Part shown: one piece after another, positions 796-4,733 of the stretch | Layout: every line of letters begins with the position of its first letter | Numbering within the stretch: position 1 is the first letter of the stretch | The notes under the pieces: generated by a model | The model's input: only the letters and a program-made list of their open reading frames with translations | The model's database searches: none | Told to the model about the DNA's origin: nothing | Translations under genes and position numbers: made by a program | DNA from: a virus | DNA: 33,525 nt | Virus record (IMG/VR): IMGVR_UViG_3300042006_000263 | Location: 1-33,525 of that record | Direction: 5' to 3' (one strand)

Positions 796-1064
796 GGTGT
801 AACTCCTGACGGATTAACGAAAAGGAGCCATCACTCTCGCTACCAAACGAAGGGTGGAGGCCATACGCAGGTTGGTAGACCGGTCGTCAGGAACCCCGGC
901 GCATCCGAAGACGCCCCGCGCATGACCACCATAAAACGAAGACGAGAAACGTCATCGCAAGACAGTAGTCTTGTGCTTCTGACGGAGCGGGCTACCAAAC
1001 CCGATCACTGTTTTCAGTGACCCGGAGACGATAAAACCCGCAGGCTAGACGCACAAGCCGGCGG
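796..1064 (-). promoter_or_regulatory. Structured leader of the DUF6124-like gene, possible RNA switch
   Basis: Three related segments lie upstream of the start codon. In order of transcription they are A (1003-976), B (893-869) and C (849-839 plus 813-803). A and C are direct copies (TTGGTAGC ... CCGTCAG); B is the inverted copy. B can therefore pair with A or with C, but not both. The pairing with C includes eight perfect base pairs (892-885 with 811-804) that cover AGGA of the Shine-Dalgarno. Further small hairpins are at 1005-1020 (TCACTG/CAGTGA), 958-973 (CAAGAC/GTCTTG) and 1038-1064. This is read directly from sequence; a regulatory role is inferred. The promoter probably lies upstream of about 1065. 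Confidence 0.6.
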
Positions 1065-3201: not shown

Positions 3202-4155
3202 TTAAGCATGCTGCGCTTTTGTCCCTCCTTCCTGGGCATGAGGCTGGCTGACCAGTACATACAAGCAGCAGACGATCAGCGCGGCGCCTATCCAGCCGAG
3301 CAAGGGTAGGCGCTCACCGACGATGGCTACGGCCAGTACCGCTGCAACCACCGGCTCGATCAGTGAAAGTGTGGTAGCGGTGGTGGCGGCTACGTGGGAA
3401 AGGCCCATGCCGAACAGGATGTAACCAAGGAACATCGGCACCAGAATCATGTACAGCCCGACCGCTGCGTTATTCCAGCTCTGCAACAGGCTCGCGCCAT
3501 TTACCAGCAGCACCGGAATCAACAGTAAACCACCTAGGCCAAACGTAGTGCCCATCGCTGCGCCAGACGAGATGCCCTTGCGCATGAGCCGGTGGGCTGT
3601 CCACGAATACAGCGCGTAGGTCGCGCCCGCTACCACTCCCAGCACTACGCCCAGAACGCCTTGCACCAATGAAGCGTGCACCGATGAATCCGCATGACCT
3701 CGCGCCTTGGCAACGCACAAAAACACCGTGCCGATTAACCCCAGCGCAGCGCCTAACGTCCACCGGGCAGTCAGATGTTTGCCGTCGAATATCCGTTCGA
3801 TGATCGCACTAAGTAACGGTGCCGAACCGATTGTGATCACCGTGCCGATGGTCACGCCCGCAATGTGCATCGAGCTGTAAAACGCCAGCGGATAGATCGC
3901 TACGGCGACGGCACCGATCAGCACTAACATCCAGTGCTCACGCAACCTGCCTCGATCAACACTGATATTGCGCACCGCCAAAAGCATTTGCAGCAAACCA
4001 CCGATGCCCATCGCTGCCGCACCGATGGCCAGCGGACTGACTTGCGGTGCGAAGGTGGCGGCAGTGCCGGTAGTGCCCCACAACACCGATGCGCCCAGGA
4101 CGCAAAAAACCCCAAAACCTCGGCCTTTCGCCTGTGAGGATGAAACGGCAGTCAT
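3202..4155 (-). CDS. EamA/DMT-superfamily transporter
   Basis: A 317-residue inner-membrane protein with about ten hydrophobic helices arranged as two five-helix halves, as in EamA-type drug/metabolite transporters. The first half starts GVFCVLGASVLWGTTG, and the second ends with the typical sequence TATTLSLIEPVVAAVLA followed by GERL, a hallmark of the family. The substrate cannot be read from sequence; members export amino acids, metabolites or toxic compounds. Its start overlaps the stop of the upstream TetR gene by an ATGA, so the two are one translationally coupled operon and the regulator probably controls its export function. Confidence 0.9.
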   Translation of the reverse strand: MTAVSSSQAKGRGFGVFCVLGASVLWGTTGTAATFAPQVSPLAIGAAAMGIGGLLQMLLAVRNISVDRGRLREHWMLVLIGAVAVAIYPLAFYSSMHIAGVTIGTVITIGSAPLLSAIIERIFDGKHLTARWTLGAALGLIGTVFLCVAKARGHADSSVHASLVQGVLGVVLGVVAGATYALYSWTAHRLMRKGISSGAAMGTTFGLGGLLLIPVLLVNGASLLQSWNNAAVGLYMILVPMFLGYILFGMGLSHVAATTATTLSLIEPVVAAVLAVAIVGERLPLLGWIGAALIVCCLYVLVSQPHAQEGGTKAQHA

Positions 4156-4733
4156 AGCGCCTCCAGTAATGAAACAGTAATCAGACGAGCCTGCTGCACG
4201 CGAGAATCGTTGCCCTCAAGCCCCGCACGTGACATCGCCCCTTCCAACAGATACGAGAGGTGCGCTGCGGTTTGGCTGACAACATCGGGGCGCCCTGGCG
4301 AAAGGTCAGTCAGATGCGTGACCAGCAATTGCTCGACTTCTTCTTTGTGCCGCCTGACGGCATCGCGCCCTACATCGCCAGCCGGCAGTTCGGCGGCCGC
4401 GTTGAGCAAACCGCAGCCGCGAAAACCCCGCTCATAGGCGAAATTGGCGTGATCTGCATAAGCATCGAAGATCGCCAACACGCGGGTCTGGGGCGTGGTA
4501 GCGTGGCACATGCGCTTTTCGTACAACGCTAGCCATTCGGCGTGCCTGACTTCGATGAACGCCGCTACCAGCTCAGCCTTGGATTTAAAGTTGTTATATA
4601 GGCTCATCTTCGCCACACCGGCCTTGGCTGTGATGGTGTCGATGCCGGTCGCGGTAATGCCGTCGTTGTAGAAAAGCGTCGCCGCAGCTTCCAGCAAGCG
4701 CGTCTTGGCGGCTTTAGTTTTAGGAGTAGGCAT
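4152..4733 (-). CDS. TetR-family transcriptional regulator
   Basis: A 193-residue regulator. Residues about 9-55 form the TetR helix-turn-helix: AAATLFYNDGITATGIDTI, then KAGVAKMSLYNNFKSK with the usual recognition helix ending in YNNF. The C-terminal part is a helical ligand-binding/dimer domain with LLNAAAELP in the region typical of the AcrR/NemR-like group. It is first in an operon with the EamA transporter. A perfect palindrome 15 bases upstream of its start codon is a likely operator, so autorepression released by a small effector is the expected mode. The ligand is unknown. Confidence 0.9.
   Translation of the reverse strand: MPTPKTKAAKTRLLEAAATLFYNDGITATGIDTITAKAGVAKMSLYNNFKSKAELVAAFIEVRHAEWLALYEKRMCHATTPQTRVLAIFDAYADHANFAYERGFRGCGLLNAAAELPAGDVGRDAVRRHKEEVEQLLVTHLTDLSPGRPDVVSQTAAHLSYLLEGAMSRAGLEGNDSRVQQARLITVSLLEAL

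Follow-up and report, generated by a model that had tools for sequence, protein, structure and literature searches.

The leader of the DUF6124 gene in IMG/VR record IMGVR_UViG_3300042006_000263 (positions 1 to 33,525; this whole 33,525-nt stretch is referred to here as the window) is a C4 antisense RNA module of the phage P1 type, an already known class of regulator. It is very probably a chromosomal module of the P1/P7 type in which a C4 RNA excised from the leader serves as an antisense to the ribosome site of the DUF6124 gene. What is less expected is not the class of the element but the scale on which it occurs, with tens of self-addressed modules in single genomes. With more modest confidence, we favor a broader picture in which Pseudomonas chromosomes carry a large set of C4 RNAs, often 20-40 per genome, that comes from phage immunity. 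Each would control one small gene of the DUF6124 or DUF3077-like kind by means of a two-part address not shared with other modules. Tens of modules would thus operate in parallel with little cross-talk between them, and addresses would be exchanged at fixed positions in the chromosome in the course of evolution. If borne out at the bench, this would amount to a naturally occurring collection of antisense regulators insulated from one another. It would be an easy system for following the divergence of RNA specificity and would give access to the role of the many uncharacterised DUF6124 and DUF3077 genes.

Identity of the leader element

A scan of the whole window against Rfam produced a sole match, to C4 antisense RNA (RF01695), at 936-850 on the minus strand, the strand on which the element and all features described here are read. 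This match scores 75.6 bits (E = 3e-13) against a gathering score (cut-off) of 45 bits and is full length, covering model positions 1-87 of 87. A permissive Rfam search also revealed a full-length match to the c4-a1b1 motif (RF03163) at 1034-984, with a score of 43.4 bits (E = 1.3e-9) that lies slightly below the gathering score of 46.7 bits; 7 of 20 paralogues scanned reach that score. Rfam describes RF03163 as 'a1, b1 targets of C4 antisense RNA', and both motifs appear in Weinberg et al. 2010 (PMC2864571), the one paper in the literature searched that names c4-a1b1. A sequence-only reading of this DNA had recognized no named class in the leader, a view that fails because the C4 RNA and its upstream target are both Rfam families. 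The three further hairpins noted in that reading correspond to the stem-loops of C4 and the hairpins of c4-a1b1. Two other candidates were rejected. IsrK of Gifsy-1 (RF01394) matches the a1b1 part with only 26.8 bits against a cut-off of 50 and, unlike the window module, acts with orf45, anrP and antQ. A metabolite riboswitch was ruled out by the lack of a match to any known aptamer class, the Rfam search reporting no riboswitch family in the leader even at E values up to 1.

The same reading had proposed three segments upstream of the gene, A, B and C in the order of transcription, and the sequences read off the minus strand confirm their locations. In the nomenclature of P1, in which b denotes the Shine-Dalgarno side (the labels in our covariation and pairing scripts are the reverse, with 'a' standing for the loop and 'b' for the second arm), A is the a1/b1 target, B provides the antisense segments a' and b' of C4, and C is the a2/b2 target. 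The a1 site is UUUGGUAG (999-992) and the b1 site is CCGUCAG (985-979). Within C4, the b' loop is GGUUCCUGACGA (895-884) and the a' segment is CUACCAA (878-872). The a2 site is a second UUUGGUAG (847-840), and the b2 site, CCGUCAGGAG (812-803), includes the Shine-Dalgarno AGGA (807-804); past it lies the ATG start codon of the DUF6124 gene at 795. As had been proposed, B is able to pair with either of the other two segments. With C, the loop forms an 11-pair run with b2 (8 Watson-Crick and 3 G-U pairs) and a' forms 7 pairs with a2. With A, there are 6 pairs at the loop arm, where b1 is complementary to b', and 7 pairs between a1 and a'. The 11-pair run takes in the Shine-Dalgarno and would hide the ribosome site, again in agreement with the earlier proposal. 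The element lies well outside chance expectation, given the E values of the two Rfam matches and a leader fold at z = -4.55 against dinucleotide shuffles.

We compared this arrangement with that of P1, taking the P1 facts from the annotated P1 record and later papers. The annotated immI region contains the promoters P2c4 and P1c4, followed by a1, b1, C4 (77 nt), a2, b2, icd and ant; icd starts 51 nt after the end of C4, b2 covers the icd ribosome site, and a1 and b1 are labelled putative. In P1, the a2 sequence UUUGACAG is matched by CUGUCAA in C4, and b2, within CCUGUUAGUGAGG, is matched by UUUCACUAACG in the C4 loop. Judged by its sequence, the window element is the P1 design with other letters. 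It shares with P1/P7 C4 and c4-a1b1 the RNA fold, the order a1-b1, C4, a2-b2, the distances, the placement of b2 over the Shine-Dalgarno and a small open reading frame that comes first, and the positions of its a2 and b2 sites match those of the P1 record. Unlike P1 immI with its icd and ant genes, the window module precedes a DUF6124 gene and no ant gene was found downstream. It also differs from immI in being probably host-chromosomal, in occurring in many copies per genome and in having a candidate promoter without a known C1 operator.

C4 modules and their targets in Pseudomonas genomes

The sequence-only reading had allowed that the element might be a dispersed Pseudomonas repeat, and the module is indeed dispersed in Pseudomonas in many copies per genome. 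The genome of Pseudomonas sp. CROZ-RG-20F-R04-15 (G001) holds 42 C4 RNAs (loci L117-L158), all above the cut-off, and 37 DUF6124 matches, while the complete genome of Pseudomonas sp. DTU12.3 (G002) holds 26 C4 RNAs and 27 DUF6124 matches. Twelve genomes searched jointly contain 18-43 C4 RNAs each. Among 119 sampled Pseudomonas species, for which the copy counts are lower bounds, C4 was found in 110, with a median of at least 13 copies; at least 10 copies are present in 73 species and at least 33 in 16. The C4 RNA lies just upstream of a DUF6124 gene in 32 of 42 cases in G001 and 21 of 26 in G002, with a spacing to the family match that is nearly always 200-230 nt. Elsewhere in G001, C4 RNAs stand before genes of other kinds: DUF3077-like ones, small ones with no Pfam match and, once, a Bro-N gene. 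Bro-N is a kind of domain found in antirepressors, and the layout at this last locus (L121, C88:45839-45924) is near the ancestral antirepressor layout.

Our search of the literature produced no account of such sets of C4 modules in Pseudomonas, and DUF6124 was not named in it. The group 1 C4-like sRNAs of A. baumannii likewise have many members in one genome and variable loops (PMC5320573). In the passages covered, neither a matched target in cis nor a family of downstream genes is described for them, whereas each Pseudomonas C4 comes with a cis target of its own and, as a rule, with a gene of one recurring family downstream.

To quantify the match between C4 RNAs and targets, every C4 was paired in turn with all downstream targets of its genome and scored, with 5000 permutations. 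In G001, the mean score of the 42 C4 RNAs is 37.3 against their own a2b2 and 23.2 against other targets (z = 22.8; 0 of 5000 permutations), and 34.0 against their own a1b1 compared with 23.9 for others (z = 19.1). The corresponding values for a2b2 in G002 are 36.9 and 23.5 (z = 15.9), with z = 13.3 for a1b1. A reversed-loop control was near chance (z = 2.2-2.5). Each arm of the upstream target covaries with its partner in C4: z is 15.9 in G001 and 10.5 in G002 for a' and a1 ('b vs b1' in the scripts), and 12.3 and 9.6, respectively, for the b' loop and b1 ('a vs a1'). The module's own downstream target is uniquely the best for 38 of 42 C4 RNAs in G001 and 22 of 26 in G002, and its own upstream target for 25 of 42 and 19 of 26. 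The specificity loops are all distinct (42 of 42 and 26 of 26), and the median self score is reached by only a single cross pair out of 1722 in G001 and by 3 out of 650 in G002. Homologous leaders thus show compensatory changes across A, B and C: the core is present in 90 of 114 DUF6124 leaders, with about 45 distinct antisense sequences, each a pair of segments, most of which have matching downstream and upstream sites. At the level of sequence complementarity, C4 and both its targets change together, and the predicted pairing suggests that the modules are insulated, with little cross-talk expected.

Positions with shared flanks could be compared between the two genomes. The address is kept in the pairs L118/L159 and L130/L166 and replaced in L141/L165, where identical flanks in the two species enclose different C4 loops, as though one address had been exchanged for another at a constant location. 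Separately, one C4 of G001 (L144, C1:42464-42550) is an apparent orphan, followed by a terminator-like hairpin and no DUF6124 gene. Its match to the target of the L151 module is better than that to its own, and it may therefore act in trans.

Proposed control of the DUF6124 ribosome site

Family membership, layout and the coordinated variation of C4 and its two targets are observed directly. Building on these, we infer a promoter, processing of C4, repression of the gene and action of C4 in trans. The candidate promoter (1094-1065) consists of a -35 element TTGCGC (1094-1089), an 18-nt spacer and a -10 element CAGAAT (1070-1065), with a start predicted near 1058. It is part of a block, TTGCGC-18 nt-CAGAATCCGCCGGCTTGTGC, that stands upstream of A, so the transcript would start before A, B and C. 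In the two genomes, most C4 leaders of the DUF6124 type carry this block at the equivalent position; a strict consensus promoter scan did not call it at 1065-1094, and it is weakly sigma-70-like. A single transcript from near 1058 would carry a1-b1, C4, a2-b2 and the DUF6124 coding region. C4 would then be excised from the leader, presumably by RNase P as in P1, and its two single-stranded segments would pair with a2 and b2 on the DUF6124 mRNA, covering the Shine-Dalgarno and blocking translation. The a1-b1 site would serve as a second binding site for the same C4, and may soak it up or affect its processing or transcription. As cited in PMC5320573, P1/P7 C4 is processed by RNase P from a longer transcript to an RNA of about 77 nt, and the A. 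baumannii C4-like RNAs are highly expressed and appear processed.

In favor of this mechanism, the RF01695 and RF03163 matches occur in the expected order, the P1 record shows the corresponding layout, C4 RNAs fit their own targets best in two genomes, and most of them precede a DUF6124 gene at a near-constant spacing. Against it stand the a1b1 match under the cut-off, the weakly sigma-70-like promoter, a controlled gene that is neither icd nor ant, and the placement of the Shine-Dalgarno in a local hairpin of the predicted fold. That fold also has C4 folded on itself. As a mask of the Shine-Dalgarno, the local hairpin was set aside, since it is present in the fold but covaries weakly (z = 2.3 and 0.9).

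An unlikely alternative to a translation block is that C4 pairing mainly stops transcription within the leader. The P4 CI RNA, which acts by transcription termination, has the same layout of an antisense RNA between an upstream and a downstream target, seqA and seqC, on one transcript (PMC4825925), and covariation of the upstream target pairing would be compatible with such a role; no sequence match to P4 CI was reported for the window. However, in most modules by far the downstream target covers the ribosome site, in keeping with a translation block, and a terminator scan of the leader found none.

Considerably less probable is a translational switch in cis, in which B remains part of the mRNA and the site is open when B pairs with A and closed when it pairs with C, possibly in response to a ligand or to the speed of transcription. 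The three segments would lie on one transcript and both pairings are conserved. Nevertheless, B forms part of a conserved, self-contained C4 fold, which wins in the predicted fold, no aptamer-like conserved core accompanies C4, and the experimentally studied C4 members work as processed antisense RNAs. Of the switch described in the sequence-only reading, RNA control over the ribosome site is supported, whereas a ligand switch in cis is not, since the known mechanism of the class is that of a processed antisense RNA. Least probable of all is a decaying, dispersed prophage relic without present function: copies are many, and some lack a downstream gene (L144) or lie beside a broken DUF6124 frame (L150, C6:54161), yet the loops differ in every copy and stay matched to two targets each, which requires selection or concerted exchange.

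Two further features of the promoters deserve mention. By simple patterns that miss some modules, two promoter types recur, in 33 and 12 of 68 modules, and a second type, TTTTCAGGTTGTCCGTCGGAC, marks other modules than the TTGCGC...CAGAATCCGCCGGCTTGTGC block. That block is near-identical before dispersed modules and longer than a plain promoter requires; its excess conservation makes a shared regulator site possible.

The DUF6124 gene and its genomic setting

The presumed controlled gene (795-433) encodes a protein of 120 amino acids that matches DUF6124 (PF19619, 67.7 bits, E = 8.6e-19), as the sequence-only reading had suggested. Its AlphaFold model is confident only for a C-terminal helical hairpin (mean pLDDT 69), and a Foldseek search of the PDB with this model returned nothing at E <= 0.001. 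Kinship to the DUF3077-like proteins was not supported (HHalign probability 9.9%). We also rejected DUF6124 as a phage or plasmid gene: it occurs in 1 of 50,697 phage records, at the edge of that record, and none was found in the plasmid collection searched. A contig (L001) with an identical DUF6124 protein and a nearly identical leader extends past the left end of the window, where the next gene is chemotaxis-receptor-like. Given the near-absence of DUF6124 from the phage and plasmid collections and this continuation, the module most likely belongs to the host chromosome at the edge of a prophage and was included by the prophage caller. Judged from translations, positions 10000-33525 of the window hold prophage tail, portal and terminase-like genes. 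The DMT transporter and TetR-like genes at 3202-4733 are of host type, and the left several kb of the window resemble host flank.
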